A stretch of DNA of 11,579 nt from Acidobacteriaceae bacterium (GTDB lineage: Bacteria > Acidobacteriota > Terriglobia > Terriglobales > Acidobacteriaceae). The stretch spans positions 4,356-15,934 of the forward strand of contig PLKU01000297.1 of NCBI GenBank assembly GCA_003140705.1. The letters run 5' to 3'. Shown one piece after another: positions 302 to 10,045 of the stretch (its first letter is position 1; each line of letters starts with the position of its first letter). The translations under genes and the position numbers were made by a program. Below the pieces are notes generated by a model, which was given only the letters and a program-made list of their open reading frames with translations, ran no database searches and had not been told where the DNA came from.

Positions 302-2317
302 TTAGCGTGCGGGCGGCGGCGGCTGTGTCTGCTCCATGTATTCCACGTAGCCGAGCAGCGCGCCCCAGTGGTAGAAACGGTCGCTGTTTCTCACGTCGTC
401 GCCGCTGCCGGTCTTAGCGTTGTAGTTCTCGTGTACGTGGCCGTTCTCCTTCCACTCCTTCAGGAACAGCTCATAGGACTTCTGCGCAAAGTCGCGTCGC
501 GCCTCGGGGTCGTCGTAGTTGCGCAAACCAAGATAGACGAGATAGTTCATGGGACCCCAGATACGGCCACGCCAGTAGTTCTGATCGGAAAAGGCTGGAT
601 CGTTGCGCGCGATGGAGGGAATGACCCACTGTCCCCAGAATTCGTCGGTGTTGAGCAAGTGCTTCTGAATCATGGTTTGCGCCTGGGCGGGCGTAGCGGC
701 GCGTGCCAGCAGCGGATAGAGGTTGGTCGGCGAAAGCCGGTGGCTGAGCTGGCCGGTGTGCAGGTCCTTGTTCAGAAAGATGCCGTCCGGCTCGCTCCAC
801 AGCGTGGCCAGGCTGGCGCGGTAGCGGTCGGAGCGCGCGCGTAACTCCGTGGCCTCGGCAGACCGGCCAAGCTCAGCGGCAATCTGGGCCAGTGCGTCGC
901 AGTCGGCGATATACATGCTCATCAGGCCTACATCGGCAATCTCCATCAGGTGCAACTTTGCGTCGTAGGACGCGCCGTCGTACATGGGGCTGTTATCGAG
1001 GCCGGATTCGTAGATGGTCCCCGCGCCGGTTTCGCGGAAGCTGTCGTCGAGATTGGTGGGATCGGTGGGGCCATCGTTGCCCCAGGCCAGGTAGCCTTGC
1101 GTCTGGCGATGCTGGTCCCACCAGCGGTTCCAGCTCAGCAGCGGCTCGAAGGTGTCCTGAAGAAACCAGCGGTCGTGAAACTGCTGATAGAGGCCCAGCA
1201 CCGTGATGGCTCCCACTGGTGGCTCGGAGTGATCGAAGGTCTTCCAGCCGCCGGGGCGGGCAAGGTTGGGAACGAAGCCACTCGGCGTCTCCTCTCGCAA
1301 AATCTCCATGGCGTTGGCGTAGGCCAGGTCGCGGTCGCCAATCGCTGCCAGAGTGGCGGCGAAGAAGGTATCTCAGTCGAAGAGTATGTAGCCGCCAAAT
1401 TTCAGGTTCCAGACGCGGCTCACCGGGGAGATGACGCGGCGCAGGTTCGGCTCGTAGATGGTGTCCCAGCCGAGCGTGGTTTCAATGGCATCGCGGATAG
1501 GCGCCGCGGTACCGGCGGAGGCGACGGACTTCTCGTAGGCCTGGCGTTGGCGATCGACGATGGCCTCAATCTCGGCCAGGGTGCGGCGTCGTCCGGTGGC
1601 GATGCCCACCGGCGCCGTGAAATCCACGGAAAAGTAGGGCGAGGTGACGGGAACGTCGGCGTAGTCGTCGCTTTCGGCATGGGCGGAGGGTGGGGCGCAG
1701 GTGCAATACACGGGCGCGGGGCCCGAGGCGCCGCGGGTCTCGATGAAACCCGCGCGGCGTAACGCTGTGCCGGGCCGGTTCCAGAGGAAATCGACGGAGA
1801 CCACCAGCGTGGGAGGCAAAGCGGAGATTGGCTTGGATGGCAGCGGCGTGGCGAGCAGAACGAGGTTTCCCGCATCGTGCGCGCTCTGGATGCGCCAACT
1901 GTGGCCTTTCCAGGTAACGCGCAGATCGGTGTAGCTGCCGTCCCAGGCATGGGGGCCAGGAACTACCTGCTCGGCGCCGGGCTGCAGGCGGCCGATGAGA
2001 ACATCGCCAAGAAACGCATCGCCGCCCAGGGTGGCGTTGTGCTTCAGGCCCACATGAATGGCCAAACCCTCGGGGAGCAGCACCTGCGTAATCACGCTGT
2101 TTGTGTCCCACGTATTCCATCCCTGGGCCAGGCGCTGCTGCACCGCGCGGTAGTTGGCCGATGGCGACGGAGGAGCGGGTTGGTCCCCTGCGCGGCGCGA
2201 AGAGGCCGTTGGAAACGAAGATCCGGCTTCTGGCTGTGCCAGTGCGGCGATTGAGATTCCCCAAGCTAGAAACAGGATCGGGAAGGCACGATAAGACGCT
2301 TTTGATGAAAGAACCAT
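302..2317 (-). pseudogene. Exported GH63-type glycosidase interrupted by one in-frame TGA
   Basis: The frame encodes 671 residues if codon 315 (TGA at 1375-1373) is read through. The ATG at 2317 is chosen because it opens a signal peptide (MVLSSK, hydrophobic core, A-L-A before Q28) and has GGGAG 10 nt upstream; a frame-open start at 2416 would put 33 non-signal residues in front. Before the stop lies a beta-rich N-terminal domain; after it the (alpha/alpha)6 catalytic part of GH63 (glucosidase/mannosylglycerate hydrolase-like) enzymes. The general-acid motif ESGLDNSPMYD (Asp441), YWRGRIWGPMNYL, the general-base motif HVHENYNAKTG (Glu630) and FYHWGALLG are all present. The interrupted motif reads GGYILFD-stop-DTFF, where relatives have F-D-W-D. 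The gene ends in TAA at 304-302. It lies divergent to the GH5-like gene. As written it yields a 314-aa product lacking the active site. Possible explanations are a very recent nonsense mutation (TGG to TGA, one transition), suppression, or a sequencing error. Substrate cannot be told; an alpha-glucoside or alpha-mannoside is likely from the family. Confidence 0.85.
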
Positions 2318-2548: not shown

Positions 2549-3781
2549 GTGAAAGCATCTGTTGTTCTTGGGATCGGAATTGCCCTTGCATCAGCTGTCG
2601 GCTTTGCTCATGCAGAGAAGCCGTTGACGGACTACAGCTCCGTTCGAGGCGTGAATTATGGATTGTATGGCGACCAGGCCACGCTGGAAAGGGATCTCGG
2701 CTATGCCAAGCGGATCAACCTGAACAGCACACGCATCTGGCTGAGTTACAAAGCCTACGAGAAGGCTCCCCAAGCATACATCGAACGGCTGCGTAATTAT
2801 ATCCGCACGGCGAACCGGATGGGCTTTACAACGATGCCGATCTTGTGGAATGGGAACGACCTGAATCCGGATTCCCTCAAGCCCGCATTCCGCGTGGAGG
2901 GAGACGCATACGTTAAGGCCATTGTCGAGGCAGTCAAGGATGAACCAGGGGTGCTGATGTGGGACATCATGAATGAGCCCCTCTGGAACGACTATTACAA
3001 CAAAGCCAGCGGCGAAGAGAAGAAACAACACGAAGGAGAGATAACAGCGTTCGTGCGGTACTCCCTGACTTATGTGAAGATGATTGACCCTGTGAATGCA
3101 GTGACGGTCGGATATGCATTCTCGAGCGAAATGGAAGGCTCTGCCGATCTTGTCGATGTGCTGAGTTTTCACGATTACACGACGACCCGGGGCTCGGTTG
3201 AAGACGCTTACCGCACAGCCGAGGAGATCGCAAAGAAGTACCGCAAGCCAATTCTCAATACTGAAACGGCGTGCATCGCGCGTGGGAATCCGTACGACGA
3301 GGTTCTGCAAATTGCCCAGGAGCACCACACGGGATGGTATCTGTTCAACCTGATGATCGGCGGGTACTGGGGCGAAGTGCACGGAATCTTCTACCCTGAC
3401 GGGACGGTGCGCGACCCTTCCATCATCGCGGCAGTTATGGGCTTCTACAGGAATCGCAACATGGACACGATCGTTAAGTCCTCGCCGAACCGGGAGGGCG
3501 CGGCCGAGAAAGCTCTGAAGGCGATTGAAGATGCGTTAAGTGAAGACAAGGGGACGTTTGGCCGGCCTCCATCTGCGGCGGCGACGGACAAGATCCTGGA
3601 TGCGGCGGAATACGCGGCGAACTTGCTGGAGGCTGCCGAGATGGTTCCGATGAATATGCCGCCGACCGCGCAGATCCTTTATTGGCGACAGCAGCCGCCG
3701 GAGAAGCGCGACCGGGAGGCGGTCCGGAACTTCACCTACGAGTTGGGGCTGGAGCTTAAGAAAGAGTGCCAGCTCAACTAG
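2549..3781 (+). CDS. Exported GH5-like glycoside hydrolase (cellulase/mannanase superfamily)
   Basis: A 410-aa secreted retaining glycosidase. The GTG start at 2549 has GGGGGA six nt upstream and opens a signal peptide (MKASVVLGIGIALASAVGFAHA, cleavage after A-H-A at residue 22). Residues 30-305 form a TIM barrel of clan GH-A: VRGVNYGLYG near strand 1, STRIWLS, MWDIMNEP with Glu143 as acid/base, LSFHDY with His208, and ILNTET with Glu239 as nucleophile. GWYLFNLM and GGYWGEVHGIFYPDG complete the barrel. Residues about 310-410 are a charged, probably helical extension outside the usual barrel. The enzyme presumably hydrolyses a beta-linked glucan or mannan outside the cytoplasm; the substrate is not readable from sequence, and a GH2-type barrel is a less likely alternative. 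It is divergent from the GH63-type gene across 231 bp and ends in TAG. It is intact and not obviously in an operon with the genes downstream. Confidence 0.85.
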   Translation: MKASVVLGIGIALASAVGFAHAEKPLTDYSSVRGVNYGLYGDQATLERDLGYAKRINLNSTRIWLSYKAYEKAPQAYIERLRNYIRTANRMGFTTMPILWNGNDLNPDSLKPAFRVEGDAYVKAIVEAVKDEPGVLMWDIMNEPLWNDYYNKASGEEKKQHEGEITAFVRYSLTYVKMIDPVNAVTVGYAFSSEMEGSADLVDVLSFHDYTTTRGSVEDAYRTAEEIAKKYRKPILNTETACIARGNPYDEVLQIAQEHHTGWYLFNLMIGGYWGEVHGIFYPDGTVRDPSIIAAVMGFYRNRNMDTIVKSSPNREGAAEKALKAIEDALSEDKGTFGRPPSAAATDKILDAAEYAANLLEAAEMVPMNMPPTAQILYWRQQPPEKRDREAVRNFTYELGLELKKECQLN

Positions 3782-3918: not shown

Positions 3919-4260
3919 TCAATCTCCTTTCGTCAGCTTCTGGTATAGGACTGGATCGAGTTCTTCCAGACCTATGATGCCGTGCAAGTGGTTGACCGAG
4001 ATCCACGGCAGCCAGGTACGGTGAGCGCCGATGCCTCTGATGCCCGGTCCCATCCGCCAGTGTTCCTGCTGCCAGCCCGGTCCCTTCAGGTCGTAAATGC
4101 GGCCGGGCAGCGCCAGCATGGACTTGGTGTCGTGAAGCAGGATGCGCGCGACGTCCAGATAGTGCTCGTCGCTGGTGTACTTATACAACCGGGCATAGTA
4201 GGGCACGGCCCAATCCAGATACTCGTCCACCTCGCTACCCGAAACGGCGTGGCCAGTTCA
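3919..4260 (-). pseudogene. C-terminal stub of a probable carbohydrate-active protein
   Basis: The frame reads about 113 residues up to a TGA at 3921-3919. An in-frame TGA at 4260-4258 closes it upstream, and no signal peptide or ribosome binding site precedes the internal GTG at 4230. The text is strongly protein-like: DEYLDWAVPYYARLYKYT, then LDVARILLHDTKSML, PGRIYDL, GPGWQQEHWRM, HRTWLPWISVNHLHGI and GLEELDPVLYQKL. The aromatic-rich helical pattern resembles the end of an (alpha/alpha) barrel protein of the kind found in glycan-degrading loci, but I do not recognise the exact family. It lies on the strand opposite the GH5-like gene and seems to be the 3' remainder of a gene whose 5' part was deleted near 4260. 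No function is expected from it as it stands. Confidence 0.6.
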
Positions 4261-4579
4261 GAGCGTGCATCCTATGACGAAAAAGACCGTCAGGCGCAAC
4301 GGGTTCAGGCTTGAGGTCCGGATGCTCCGGTTTGGCTCCGCACAGCCGAGAGCGACAGCGTGGTCCTTGGTGGTCGCGCGCAAGGCGAGCAAAGAGGACG
4401 AGCTACGTTTTGAGGTTCGGCAAATTATCGAGGGGAAGCGTGTAGACCTTAGAGGACTGGCGGAGTAGCTAAGCATGGGAAGGATTTAGAAAGAGGCGCC
4501 TTTGAAGGAAGGCGGGTGTACACTCTGGGGATCGGCCAGGAAGCCCAATGGGAGGTCCCTGGTTGTTCGTGAGGATGAT
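4261..4579. other. Intergenic stretch without a convincing gene
   Basis: This 319-bp region separates the gene stub from the TPR gene. A 67-codon frame (GTG 4265 to TAG 4468, + strand) and an antisense frame of similar length overlap each other; neither has a ribosome binding site, signal sequence or recognisable domain. A TACACT at 4519-4524 could be a -10 element for the TPR gene, but no good -35 stands 16-18 nt before it. The 5' part is probably debris of whatever event cut the stub at about 4260. Confidence 0.4.
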
Positions 4580-6034
4580 ATGAGACGAGCTGCTGGTCCT
4601 GTTGTTGCCGTAGTGTTGCTCAGTGGAATGGCCTTTGGCCAGCCCGCCGGGTCTGCCAAAAAGATCCCCATCACCACGTCTTCGCCGGAAGCGCGAAACT
4701 CTTACCTTAAAGGGCGGGACCTGGCCGATAAGTTGCGTTCCGACGAGGCTCGACCGCTATTGAACGAGGCCATCATCAAGGATCCGAACTTCGCCATGGC
4801 GTACTTGCTGCGTATGCAAACGGCGCCGTCTGCCAAGGAGTTCTTCGCCGATCTGAAATCTGCCGTGGCGGCAGTCGACAAAGTCTCAGAGGGAGAACGG
4901 TTGTCGATCCGAGCATCGGAGGCCATGACTGACGGCAACACCATGGAGGGCGGGAAGTACCTGCAGAAACTGGTCGCCGCGTACCCGGACGACGAGCGGG
5001 CCCACGAGTCGCTCGGCCTTTATTACCAAGGCCTTCAGCAATATGATCAAGCGATTGCGGAGAGTCAGAAGGCTATTCAGCTAGCTCCGGATTATGCGCC
5101 GGCATACAACCTGCTCGGCTATCAGTTTCGGGATGCTCAGAAATACAAGGAGGCAGAAGCGGCCTTCCGCAAGTACATTGAGCTCATTCCCAATGAGCCC
5201 AACCCATACGATTCGTTGGCCGAGCTCCTGATGAAGATGGGCCGGTTCGGCGAATCCATCGAGAATTACAAGAAAGCGCTTTCGCTCAATACTCACTTCT
5301 TCAGCGCCTACCGCGGGATTGCGGCGAACCTTATGTATCAGGACAAGCATCAGGAGGCGCTGGAGCAACTACAGAAAGAGTACGACCTGGCGCTCAACGA
5401 CGGCGACCGGCAGGATGCGCTTTTCAGCATGGCGGTTTGCTACATGGACGAGGGTAAGTTTTCAGAAGCACTGGAGAAGATTTCAAAGATCTCGTCGCTG
5501 GCTGAGCAACGAGGCGATAAAGCTGGGGTGGCATTCAACGCGGACACTCAAGGCTTTCTGCTGTTGAATGCAGGACGAGTCGAAGAGGCGAAGACGGAGT
5601 TCGCGAAGGCCCTCGAACTCGCGCACCAATCGGCTATGCCCGACGCGACAAAGAAGTCCTTTGAACTTGGAAACGACGGGCGCATGGCATTAGTGGCCAG
5701 CGCGAAGAAGGATTTCGAGAGTGCGAAAAGGGAAGCCGAGGTGATGAAGACCGGGTTCGAGGCGCTGGGTAACCCGGCTCAGGTGCGGGGAGCTCATGAA
5801 GTACTGGGGATCATCGCACTCAATCAAGAGAACTACGATGAGGCCATCTCGCATCTGAACGAAGCGAACCTTCAGTCGCCCTACGTAATGTTCCAGTTGG
5901 CCAAAGCCTATGCCGGCAAGAAGGAGGCGGGAAAAGCGACGGACTACTACCAGAAGGCCGCTGACGCCAACACGCTGCCCGATTTGGGGTACGCCCTCGT
6001 AAGGAAACAGGCAAAGAAGGCGTTGGGAAAGTAG
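4580..6034 (+). CDS. Exported TPR-repeat protein
   Basis: A 484-aa protein built almost wholly of tetratricopeptide repeats, which are helical hairpins that bind other proteins. The ATG at 4580 is chosen over an in-frame TTG at 4502 because it has GAGG five nt upstream and opens a signal peptide (MRRAAGPVVAVVLLSGMAFG). No lipobox cysteine is visible, so the product is probably periplasmic or secreted. Clear 34-residue TPRs run consecutively at about residues 139-171 (LGLYYQGLQQYDQAI), 173-205, 208-238, 241-271 and 278-308. More divergent repeats follow to residue 463, including LGIIALNQENYDEAI. The first 130 residues contain looser helical repeats (LNEAIIKDPNFAMAYL). No catalytic domain is present, so a scaffold or adaptor role is likely but the partner is unknown. 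It is a single gene convergent with the TPR-CHAT gene, and ends in TAG. Confidence 0.85.
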   Translation: MRRAAGPVVAVVLLSGMAFGQPAGSAKKIPITTSSPEARNSYLKGRDLADKLRSDEARPLLNEAIIKDPNFAMAYLLRMQTAPSAKEFFADLKSAVAAVDKVSEGERLSIRASEAMTDGNTMEGGKYLQKLVAAYPDDERAHESLGLYYQGLQQYDQAIAESQKAIQLAPDYAPAYNLLGYQFRDAQKYKEAEAAFRKYIELIPNEPNPYDSLAELLMKMGRFGESIENYKKALSLNTHFFSAYRGIAANLMYQDKHQEALEQLQKEYDLALNDGDRQDALFSMAVCYMDEGKFSEALEKISKISSLAEQRGDKAGVAFNADTQGFLLLNAGRVEEAKTEFAKALELAHQSAMPDATKKSFELGNDGRMALVASAKKDFESAKREAEVMKTGFEALGNPAQVRGAHEVLGIIALNQENYDEAISHLNEANLQSPYVMFQLAKAYAGKKEAGKATDYYQKAADANTLPDLGYALVRKQAKKALGK

Positions 6035-6491: not shown

Positions 6492-9400
6492 CTATCTCCA
6501 GTTGCCCATCAACACGAAGGGCGCCCAGTAAAAGGGATGCGCGTAGCTGGCCTGAGGAGTCGAAGTGCTCGGCTTGTTCTCTTCAACTGTGAAGCCGCGC
6601 CCACTCGCGCCGGACTGCGGCTTCACCTTGCCTTGTAACAGGTCCAGCTGTGCCAGGCGCAACGCTTCGACCTTCGGAACGTTCCCTGCGCCGTCCGCCC
6701 AGCGTTTGTAGAAGTCTGCCATCAGGGCGCCTGTACTGGCATCGTCGACTTCCCACAGCGAGGAGATTACGGCTTTCGCGCCCTTGAGCTGCGCGGTCGT
6801 GCCCAACCCATCGACTTCGCGTCCGTTGCTTGCGTCACCGCTCATGCCGGTTTCGCAGGCCGAGAGAGTGAGCAGGTCGGTGTCGGTGAGCGAGATCTGC
6901 TGATTGTCCCGGAAGTCGGCGACCGTGAGGTGATAGCCCTGCGAGTCCTGATCTTTGCCCGCCAGCAGCAGATACGAGCGGCTGTCATCTCCGGGCCGGA
7001 AGACAAAATGGCTGGCGATGTGCACTACGGTGTGCGGATGGTCGAGCGCATGCTCCATGGCCTTCTCAGTGAATGCGCCGTTGAGCAGGATGGTGCCGGG
7101 CAAGACGCCCTGGATGCTCTTGCCCTGCGCATCGCTGACCACGTCGCTCAGTTCGCCGGCAACGGCAGGCAATGCGGGCAGTGTGCTTTCGTATTGCCGC
7201 GATATGCCCATGGCTACTGCGCTGAGGTTGCTGAAATCCGGCTTTTCGGTGAGATGCGGAATGCTCACGGGCGTAATGGTGACGATGGAGTAATTCTCCA
7301 ATGTGTACTGTTTGCCGTCAAAGAGCGCGGCAAAGGGCACGTAGCGCAGGACGCCGTCGAGCGACCAGACGAGCGTTTGGGCCTGCGCCTGATCGAGATC
7401 TTTCTTCACAGGGCCGATGAGAATCTTGTAGAGATCCTGGGCGAGTGGTTTGGGATCACTGTGCGGATCGCGGAGCGCCTGCTCAAAGGCCGCGATTTTC
7501 TGGTTGAGATCTTTCTTCGCGATGGGGTACTCGCGGGCCACCGCAGTTGAACCGGTGATGACGATGACGTTGTAGCGGTCGTCGCTCAGCAGCGTATACA
7601 GCGCCACGGTCTTCGGCATCTTGGCGATGGCCTGCTTCAGCAGGCTTACATCGCCCTTGACGTCGGCTACTTGCTTGTTGGCGTCGCCGGAGGCGCTGAA
7701 GAGCTTGTAGAGGCGGCCATAATAGTCGCTCAAGCCCCTGCTTGAAGCGTTGAGCTGGTCAGAGAGCTCCTGATACTCCTTCTCCTGGTCTGGCGTGCGA
7801 TTGGGAATTTTCTTCAGCGCCGACCACTTCTCGCCCACCGCAACCATCTGCGCAGTCGCGGTCTGATAGTCCGCGGCCGCTTGCTGCTCGGCCGGAGTGA
7901 GAGTGAGCGGACTGAGCGAATCGGCGGCGGCGCCGCGCACATAGTCGGAGTATTCCTGGACCTTGAGAAGATTTAACACCTGTTGCGCTTCCGGCAGACG
8001 GCCCTGTTCGATAAGCAGGTTGGCCAGGAAGTGGTAGTAGTCTTCTCTGGATCCAAGAAAACTCTGCTGCAGGCTCTTCTCCATGCCGCTGATCTTGCTG
8101 CGCACCTGCTGCAACAAGTTGACAGCCTGCTTGCCGTAGTAAATTGCCAGCGCAGGTTGATCGCGATGAACCGCACCCATGAGGAGGTAATAAGCGGCTG
8201 CTTGCGCATTTGGGTTGCTCATCGCGATGGCGATGGGCAACGCCTGGTTCATCAGGTCGAGCCCTTTATCGTGCTGGTTCGACACGAAGTAGTCAACGCC
8301 GAGGAGAAGGAGTGCGAAGGCCTCACCTGCGTGGTTATCCATCTTACGGAAGAGTGCCAGAGACTGGGTTGTGCACTCCATCGCTTTGTCCTTGTCGCCC
8401 AGTCGAAGGTAAATACCACCGATAGAAAGCAGCTCATTGGCCTCATCGATGGAGGCACCCACAGCGCGAGAAATCACGAGACTCTGGTTGATGGCGTCGA
8501 GAGCCTTCTGTTGGTCTCCCTGAGCCTGGTAAATGGCGCCAATGGAGAATAGATCGGCGGCCTCGCTGCCGCGAATGCCCAGGGCACGATAGATCTCAAG
8601 ACTCTGTTTGTACGATTCGAGCGCCTTGTCATACTGCCCGAAGTCGAAATAAAAGCCGCCGGTGGTGCTCAGCGCGCCAGCCTCACCCAAGCGGCTGCCG
8701 GTCTGGCGCAAGAGCGGGAGAGCCTGCTTGTAAAGGTCCAGGGCTTTCTCCGGCTCGCCCAGGCTGCTGTAGATCGCCCCGGCTGACCCATCCGCAGCGA
8801 CCTCGCCGGCCAGGTTTCCCACGTCATGAAAAATCTGGATTGACTGGTTGACGTATCCCAGGGCTTTCTTCGGATCGCCTGCATTCAAATAAGCGCCGCC
8901 GATCATGTTCAGCGCCGTTGCCTTCCCCAGTCGATCGCCCACCTGATCGAACATGGGCATGGCCTGCACAAAGGCAGCGCGCGCCCCCGGCATTTCGCCC
9001 AGAAAGAAGCGCTCCATTCCGATGTAAATCAGCGACCTCGCCTGGCCACTTTGGTCAGCCACTTGTTGAAACAGAGCCAGCGCCTGAGTAAATTCGTCAA
9101 GCGCTTTGCGTCCACCTCCCACGTAGAAATCCCCAATGCCGATCCATTGCACGATCTTTGCCTGCAGATCTTCGTCGCCGGCCTGCTGCGCGAGGGTCAG
9201 AGCCTGCTTGTGGTACTCGAGCGCCTTTGCGATTTCACCCAGGTTGAATTGCGCCCAGCCGAGCCCATTCAGCGCCGCCGCCTCGCCGTCGACGTCGTTC
9301 GAGGCGGTAGACAGTTCGAGCGCCTGCTGCGACGTCTGCATTGCTTTGTCATTCTGGCTCAGGTCGGCGTAGCAACCTGCTTCGCCATTGAGAGCGATGG

Positions 9401-9737
9401 TCTGTTGCGCCTCATCGTGCGCCTTGCGCGCTTGCTCCAGTGCCTGACCGTAGATATCGAGCGCCCGCCGAAACTCCGATACCCTGAAGTAGAGATCGCC
9501 GATAGCGTTCAAGGTCGTGGCTTCGGCGTTGGCGTCGGACTTAAGCTGTGCTGCCTTCAGGTCAGTATTCAGCCTAACCAGCTTTTCGCTGATCTGTGGC
9601 GGCAATACGAGGCTTGTTTGCGTGCCGGTGACGGGGGCAGGCTGCTGCGAAAAGGCCGGAGGCGCGCACGCTGCCGCCAGCACGACGAATGCTATCCTTC
9701 GGGACGCGCTTGGGCATACAGTCGATCGAAGCGGCAT
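6492..9737 (-). CDS. Exported TPR-CHAT protein (caspase-like peptidase domain)
   Basis: A 1081-aa protein. The ATG at 9737 is chosen over an in-frame GTG at 9884 because the promoter at 9845-9817 lies between them and because the ATG opens a signal peptide (MPLRSTVC, hydrophobic core, A-F-S before QQ). Residues about 72-551 hold twelve TPR-like units of exactly 40 residues each. A charged helical linker follows (about 560-700, SREDYYHFLANLL and KVQEYSDYVRGAAAD). The C-terminal CHAT domain (about 705-1081) has the caspase-type dyad: His910 in VVHIASHF and Cys961 in LSACETG. It also has the family motifs GREVDGL, GAKAVISSLWEVDD and a final HPFYWAPFVLMGNW. CHAT domains are cysteine endopeptidases of the separase/caspase class, and TPRs usually sense or hold the partner or substrate. 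Here the export signal points to a periplasmic or extracellular role, unlike cytoplasmic defence CHATs. No gasdermin, CRISPR or other effector gene is beside it. SD sequence is weak (GAGG 12 nt upstream). It ends in TAG. Confidence 0.9.
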   Translation of the reverse strand: MPLRSTVCPSASRRIAFVVLAAACAPPAFSQQPAPVTGTQTSLVLPPQISEKLVRLNTDLKAAQLKSDANAEATTLNAIGDLYFRVSEFRRALDIYGQALEQARKAHDEAQQTIALNGEAGCYADLSQNDKAMQTSQQALELSTASNDVDGEAAALNGLGWAQFNLGEIAKALEYHKQALTLAQQAGDEDLQAKIVQWIGIGDFYVGGGRKALDEFTQALALFQQVADQSGQARSLIYIGMERFFLGEMPGARAAFVQAMPMFDQVGDRLGKATALNMIGGAYLNAGDPKKALGYVNQSIQIFHDVGNLAGEVAADGSAGAIYSSLGEPEKALDLYKQALPLLRQTGSRLGEAGALSTTGGFYFDFGQYDKALESYKQSLEIYRALGIRGSEAADLFSIGAIYQAQGDQQKALDAINQSLVISRAVGASIDEANELLSIGGIYLRLGDKDKAMECTTQSLALFRKMDNHAGEAFALLLLGVDYFVSNQHDKGLDLMNQALPIAIAMSNPNAQAAAYYLLMGAVHRDQPALAIYYGKQAVNLLQQVRSKISGMEKSLQQSFLGSREDYYHFLANLLIEQGRLPEAQQVLNLLKVQEYSDYVRGAAADSLSPLTLTPAEQQAAADYQTATAQMVAVGEKWSALKKIPNRTPDQEKEYQELSDQLNASSRGLSDYYGRLYKLFSASGDANKQVADVKGDVSLLKQAIAKMPKTVALYTLLSDDRYNVIVITGSTAVAREYPIAKKDLNQKIAAFEQALRDPHSDPKPLAQDLYKILIGPVKKDLDQAQAQTLVWSLDGVLRYVPFAALFDGKQYTLENYSIVTITPVSIPHLTEKPDFSNLSAVAMGISRQYESTLPALPAVAGELSDVVSDAQGKSIQGVLPGTILLNGAFTEKAMEHALDHPHTVVHIASHFVFRPGDDSRSYLLLAGKDQDSQGYHLTVADFRDNQQISLTDTDLLTLSACETGMSGDASNGREVDGLGTTAQLKGAKAVISSLWEVDDASTGALMADFYKRWADGAGNVPKVEALRLAQLDLLQGKVKPQSGASGRGFTVEENKPSTSTPQASYAHPFYWAPFVLMGNWR
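8085..9524 (-). repeat. Twelve-unit 120-bp TPR coding repeat
   Basis: Within the TPR-CHAT gene, twelve consecutive units are each exactly 40 codons long (1440 bp) with no insertion or deletion. Each begins with E-A or Q-A followed by a hydrophobic-x-x-hydrophobic-G helix (for example ALNAIGDLY, ALNGLGWAQ, LLSIGGIY) and a second helix of the KALxxYxQAL type. The 40-residue pitch matches the kinesin-light-chain-like TPR type (Pfam TPR_12/TPR_7), not the 34-residue type seen in the neighbouring TPR gene. DNA identity between units is only partial, so these are old, diverged duplications. Confidence 0.85.
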
Positions 9738-9816
9738 GGTGACAAACTGCCTCGGATTCAATGCGGAAAGGACCGGGAGCTGATTGCCGGTCGGGGAGAA
9801 CGGGGAAACTGCTCGC

Positions 9817-9845
9817 AGTGTAGGCGCGGCCCTCTCGTCTGTCAA
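9817..9845 (-). promoter_or_regulatory. Sigma70-type promoter of the TPR-CHAT gene
   Basis: On the minus strand, a consensus TTGACA (9845-9840) is followed after exactly 17 nt by TACACT (9822-9817). Transcription would begin near 9810, giving a leader of about 72 nt before the ATG at 9737. This is the clearest promoter in the window and it rules out the upstream GTG at 9884 as the start of the gene. No operator-like repeat overlaps it. Confidence 0.7.
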
Positions 9846-10045
9846 TGATGGCGCCCATCCGGCAGCGCCGCTGCCCGGTGCCACGAATGTGGATCAGGAT
9901 TGTTCTAAAGGCTCAATATTTGAATTCAGGCTGAGGCACGGCGGAAGCCCCATTCGCGCAGACGCCCTTATGGGGTGGTGAGGAGGTTGTGGGGAGCAGG
10001 GTGGGCATTGCCGCGATCGGAGGTTTGGTGATCGGCTATTGTCAT

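Follow-up and report, generated by a model that had tools for sequence, protein, structure and literature searches.

A glycoside hydrolase gene in a draft acidobacterial genome carries a single in-frame TGA that is probably a young nonsense allele, that is, a recent inactivating mutation of an otherwise intact glycosidase gene. The gene lies on the minus strand at positions 302..2317 of the window (by which we mean the whole stretch of 11,579 nucleotides that was analysed, corresponding to bases 4356-15934 of contig C5 and reaching the end of that contig) and encodes an MGH1-like/GH63-like protein. Its reading frame (2317-302) extends from ATG to TAA over 671 codons and contains exactly one internal stop, the TGA at codon 315 (1373..1375, read 1375-1373 on the minus strand and appearing as TCA on the plus strand). 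As described in the initial annotation, 314 codons are open before this stop (1376..2317) and 356 codons, followed by the TAA, are open after it (302..1372), with no frameshift and no other lesion. The first segment comprises what appears by eye to be a signal-like N-terminus together with an N-terminal part, and is the product expected if the TGA terminates translation; the second covers positions 10-354 of the 356-position MGH1-like_GH profile. Since these abutting open segments share one frame and together align with a single protein family from one end to the other, a chance arrangement can be excluded, and the interrupted frame is confirmed as a real observation in the assembled sequence. 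One mark of a nonsense pseudogene, an inactivating lesion in the frame, is present in the form of this one TGA at codon 315.

The original description of the gene as “GH63-type” is approximate. When the frame is read through the stop, the best Pfam model is MGH1-like_GH (PF22422, 170.5 bits against a cut-off of 27), and the Trehalase (PF01204, 62.9 bits, cut-off 21) and Glyco_hydro_63 (PF03200, 54.3 bits, cut-off 22.4) models are weaker yet also exceed their cut-offs. The C-terminal part after the stop matches MGH1-like_GH by itself with 169.3 bits, and the N-terminal part (approximately 300 residues; 314 before the stop) has no Pfam match alone. Scores against the NCBIfam models for glucosylglycerate hydrolase (63.1 bits, cut-off 550), YgjK-type alpha-glucosidase (52.9 bits, cut-off 625) and TreA (25.6 bits, cut-off 560, and 21.2 bits, cut-off 941) all fall far below the cut-offs. 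The gene has Pfam matches and candidate acid and base residues in common with the clan GH-G type glycosidases, which include the mannosylglycerate and glucosylglycerate hydrolases (MGH, MhGgH), GH63 YgjK and GH37 trehalase, and its FDWD motif has the W-x-W-D spacing of MhGgH; it differs from them in its extra N-terminal part of about 300 residues and in scoring below the NCBIfam cut-offs.

The match to the catalytic-domain profile begins at residue 313, with the column of W315 near the profile start, and a weak piece of the profile alignment places this column with a Trp of YgjK. Residues D441, E630 and W315 are invariant in 26 of the 26 aligned sequences, in keeping with the earlier statement that both downstream catalytic residues are preserved. 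By analogy with MhGgH and YgjK, D441 is a candidate general acid and E630 a candidate general base. In the mycobacterial glucosylglycerate hydrolase MhGgH (PMC6608630), Trp40, Trp42 and Asp43 show a W-x-W-D spacing and Trp42 hydrogen-bonds the sugar; judged by this spacing and by a chain of comparisons via L031 and TTHA0978, W315 is probably the equivalent of Trp42.

The best matches to the gene in a homologue search of genome contigs come from metagenome-assembled Acidobacteriaceae. Within a set of 81 homologues, made up of the best 80 of 95 relatives and a paralogue located on contig C413 of the same genome, codon 315 is TGG in 81/81 and never Cys, a count that calls for some sampling caution, the 80 relative loci having been found with six peptide patterns of which one includes Trp315. 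The frame is open across the site in all 81 sequences and TGA is confined to the gene in the window, so the proposal that the stop replaces a Trp codon where relatives have FDWD holds up on inspection of the orthologous codon. An independent search of 60 relative genomes, which is free of the peptide-pattern bias and shares many genes with the set of 81, gave TGG in the loci of 26 relatives and in two overlapping paralogue loci wherever the codon was readable, three matched loci ending short of codon 315. The closest relative, L087 (MAG palsa_248; taken as the gene of genome G004), encodes a 93% identical, intact protein with TGG at this position. In the phylogenetic tree it groups with the interrupted gene (support 100/99), and L088 (bog_222) is the next to join (99/98). 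As the stop is present in one of 82 sequences, it would have arisen since this lineage parted from that of L087.

No second genome carrying the stop was encountered among the homologues read (0/81), and conserved recoding was rejected on this ground. The “1 TGA” reported for the relative G021 is the terminator at the natural end of the gene and not an in-frame stop. One homologous match, L157 (MAG bog_368), is split across two frames (residues 14-452 and 495-668) by a frameshift that reflects either decay or assembly.

Purifying selection is evident on both sides of the stop. Relative to L087, dN/dS is 0.18 for the whole gene, 0.27 before the stop and 0.12 after it. The value is lower after the stop than before it in comparison with each of the nine homologues compared (e.g. 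0.185 before and 0.117 after relative to L088), and the higher dN/dS of the upstream part is therefore no trace of the stop. Changes were assigned to branches with L088 as the outgroup, 26 differences over the whole gene not being assignable; after the stop, the gene's own branch carries 23 synonymous and 10 nonsynonymous changes and the sister branch 14 and 6, respectively. These counts are incompatible with a lack of constraint along the whole of the own branch (P about 2.5e-8), and if the background dN/dS is put at 0.12-0.15, an unconstrained share greater than about 15-20% of the branch is rejected at 5%. A further mark of a pseudogene, selection that is relaxed once the lesion is in place, was thus not seen in the downstream part, in which dN/dS is 0.12 and the ratio of nonsynonymous to synonymous changes is 10:23 compared with 6:14 in the sister, and the earlier impression that nothing else had decayed is well founded. 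Since constraint persists downstream of it, the stop is either recent relative to the split from L087, or not real, or not harmful. This lack of decay fits a recent nonsense mutation, the first of three options originally put forward (the others being read-through as Trp and assembly error), and it is also the point that can be held against such a mutation, loss of function having left no trace in the sequence.

The own branch is approximately twice as long as that of the sister, with 72 and 38 assigned changes, respectively, over the whole gene. G-to-A on the coding strand is the commonest class on the own branch (22/72) and is found in 3/38 changes on the sister branch (Fisher P about 0.008, for a class chosen after seeing the change table of this one gene). 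Conversion of TGG to TGA is itself a G-to-A change and hence a mutation of the expected class. The excess possibly reflects a gene orientation that differs with respect to replication, or a differing mutation bias. DNA damage or an error spectrum is not needed as its source, as the ratio of nonsynonymous to synonymous changes is normal, and one gene cannot decide the matter.

The genome (G000) is a fragmentary draft of 5.24 Mb in 582 contigs, estimated as 73% complete, in which NN scaffold joins are frequent and cut genes, for example at C554:5686-5687 (L085) and in C312 and C561. A match to prfB, which encodes RF2, passes its cut-off narrowly (370.4 bits versus 370, profile positions 140-352) because the gene is cut by such a join: a second prfB piece (positions 62-136) lies just upstream in another frame, and the break coincides with the NN. 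A prfB frameshift that would result in leaky UGA termination was rejected for the same reason. Of 123 long non-overlapping frames, more end in TGA (54, this gene included) than in TAG (40) or TAA (29); these frames, of at least 300 codons, were delimited mechanically in 364,876 bases from 44 contigs or parts of contigs and are not verified genes. The next in-frame stop after a terminal TGA follows at a median of 20 codons, and TGA is the natural terminator of both the C413 paralogue and the 68% identical homologue in G021. The prfB match and the common use of TGA as a terminator exclude genome-wide reassignment for practical purposes, which puts the earlier judgement that such reassignment was unlikely on firmer ground.

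That judgement had pointed to neighbouring genes ending in TAG or TAA. This is correct for the four intact neighbours, to which a remnant of 103 codons ending in TGA (3919-4230, minus strand) has to be added. The remnant matches the last part of an 855-codon frame located elsewhere in G004 (C8:871351-871653) and follows the next gene, which encodes a GH5-like protein (2549-3781, plus strand). In G004, DNA resembling the GH5-like gene and the remnant (73% and 79% identity) is found close together near 812 kb of C8, so that the truncation of the remnant appears older than the split, and, judged from these sequence comparisons, the remnant appears to be unrelated to the stop at codon 315. Beyond it are located a TPR protein (4502-6034, plus strand) and, as its neighbour, a separate gene for a 1130-residue TPR-repeat protein with a C-terminal CHAT domain (6492-9884, minus strand). 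DNA similarity to the 20 kb around the gene of the closest relative covers only about 247-2375 of the window. A plasmid search returned 145 records, all below 60% identity, which have no bearing on the stop.

According to the favoured explanation of a young nonsense allele, one coding-strand G-to-A substitution would have converted the TGG of the conserved Trp315, at the start of the catalytic domain, to TGA, either throughout the acidobacterial population or in whichever strain dominates the assembly. RF2 would then terminate translation at codon 315 to yield a 314-residue product devoid of the catalytic domain, and the part downstream of the stop would not be expected to be made. If the stop is real, neither part of the gene should be active. 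The loss would probably be tolerated via another member of the family: the paralogue on C413, which is 67% identical and is interrupted by an NN join close to its beginning, could make it tolerable together with the more distant, partial family matches found in this genome on C409 and C283. In this account a genuine base at the stop, an inactive product and a compensating paralogue are all inferred.

It is possible, albeit rather unlikely, that the stop is a consensus or assembly error, in which case the gene would be intact in the population and one base of the draft would be wrong. The total absence of other lesions is what an error predicts, and the assembly is fragmentary (582 contigs, 73% complete). 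We counted 117 N runs, of which 104 consist of just two Ns, in the 364,876 bases sampled from 44 contigs or parts of contigs. Such joins interrupt prfB, where they simulate a frameshift, and two tRNA genes, which they hide from ARAGORN, and the last base of one NN join is located immediately to the left of the window. In contrast, the stop is approximately 1.37 kb from the nearest N run and lies inside a gap-free stretch of 11.6 kb, the flaws observed in the assembly are N joins rather than wrong bases, and the substitution required belongs to the commonest class on the gene's own branch. In a codon-usage scan for in-frame stops across the 44 contigs or parts, a weak control in that it separated coding from non-coding sequence weakly, this gene is the sole listed case in which the upstream and the downstream segment each reach 100 codons and a score of 0.2. 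With no other such stop listed, the assembly does not seem rich in isolated in-frame stops.

It is very unlikely that TGA315 is functionally read through, with a near-cognate or suppressor tRNA inserting Trp to some extent so that full-length enzyme would be made. Even less likely is the more specific possibility that a real UGA, decoded as Trp to give partial synthesis of the full-length enzyme, serves to tune the enzyme down, like a switch, in a single lineage whose code is otherwise standard. In favour of read-through, the stop takes the place of a Trp codon, and near-cognate decoding of UGA usually inserts Trp. Purifying selection also persists past the stop, and Belinky et al. (PMC7918605) interpret many in-frame stops of bacteria as read through where dN/dS is below 1. 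The present case resembles those described in that paper in having a single stop in an intact frame, a dN/dS well below 1 and a position at one tip of the tree. It differs from the shared, persisting stops described there in being known from one genome only, so that persistence is not demonstrable. The constraint is fully explained by the youth of the stop, and with 0/81 homologues carrying it, there is no measurable period over which selection has maintained the stop.

The tRNA complement, as far as it was seen, likewise lends read-through no support. A suppressor tRNA with anticodon UCA, suggested in the initial annotation as a check, is absent from the 35 tRNA genes seen in the 73% complete assembly (34 RF00005 matches, with 150 of 160 candidates scored, and one gene detected by ARAGORN only), although tRNA-Trp itself was also not found in this assembly, where the single match to a tRNA-Trp pattern is not a tRNA. 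By visual inspection, two tRNA genes split by Ns are those for Asp and Gln. With the same pattern, 30 loci were fetched (one of them from G000), and ARAGORN names 25 as tRNA-Trp(CCA), all in relatives. By eye, the anticodon stem has 5 bp in 25/25 of these, in a search that covers genomes with a match and whose pattern itself fixed the three inner stem pairs. According to one study (PMC13092985), tRNA-Trp with a 4-bp anticodon stem raises UGA read-through in E. coli, and UGA-reading forms of tRNA-Trp are described. The gene in the window is comparable to systems in that study, in which UGA is decoded as Trp via a 4-bp-stem tRNA-Trp or tRNA-Trp(UCA), in having UGA at a Trp codon of its relatives; it differs in the 5-bp stems of the relatives' tRNA-Trp, the presence of a prfB match, the common use of UGA as a terminator and the single codon known to be affected. 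Read-through as Trp, as one of the options originally listed, is accordingly left without positive support.

A split gene, with the two halves produced separately by downstream reinitiation and cooperating as pieces, is extremely unlikely. Both halves are open and the C-terminal half retains its 169.3-bit match to MGH1-like_GH. The first ATG, GTG or TTG start downstream of the TGA, however, is at 1309, with 21 codons between start and stop, so that a product begun there would lack the remainder of FDWD as well as the first part of the catalytic domain, and no ribosome-binding-like sequence was seen by eye upstream of this start. All 81 homologues are open at the site, and the split in L157 falls at another place, between residues 452 and 495. 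Selenocysteine insertion or genome-wide reassignment of TGA has nothing beyond the in-frame TGA itself in its favour and a negligible probability, given that neither tRNA-Sec (150 of 787 candidates scored; seven weaker matches fall on Ser, Cys, Leu and Tyr tRNAs) nor SelB (best score 102.6 bits versus 242.25) exceeds its cut-off in the 73% complete assembly, that TGA ends 54/123 long frames as well as the C413 paralogue in a genome with a prfB match, and that the column is Trp in 81/81 homologues and never Cys.

In-frame stops in bacterial genes are widespread and mostly short-lived, according to PMC7918605, and the case described here is an ordinary one that gives no evidence of an altered genetic code. 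Were read-through nevertheless true, the gene would provide a clean natural case in which UGA is read as Trp in an organism that has RF2 and uses the standard code. A lone TGA in place of TGG, in an otherwise intact gene from a draft metagenome assembly, is what a young nonsense allele or a wrong base looks like, and such a substitution should not by itself be taken as a sign of recoding.
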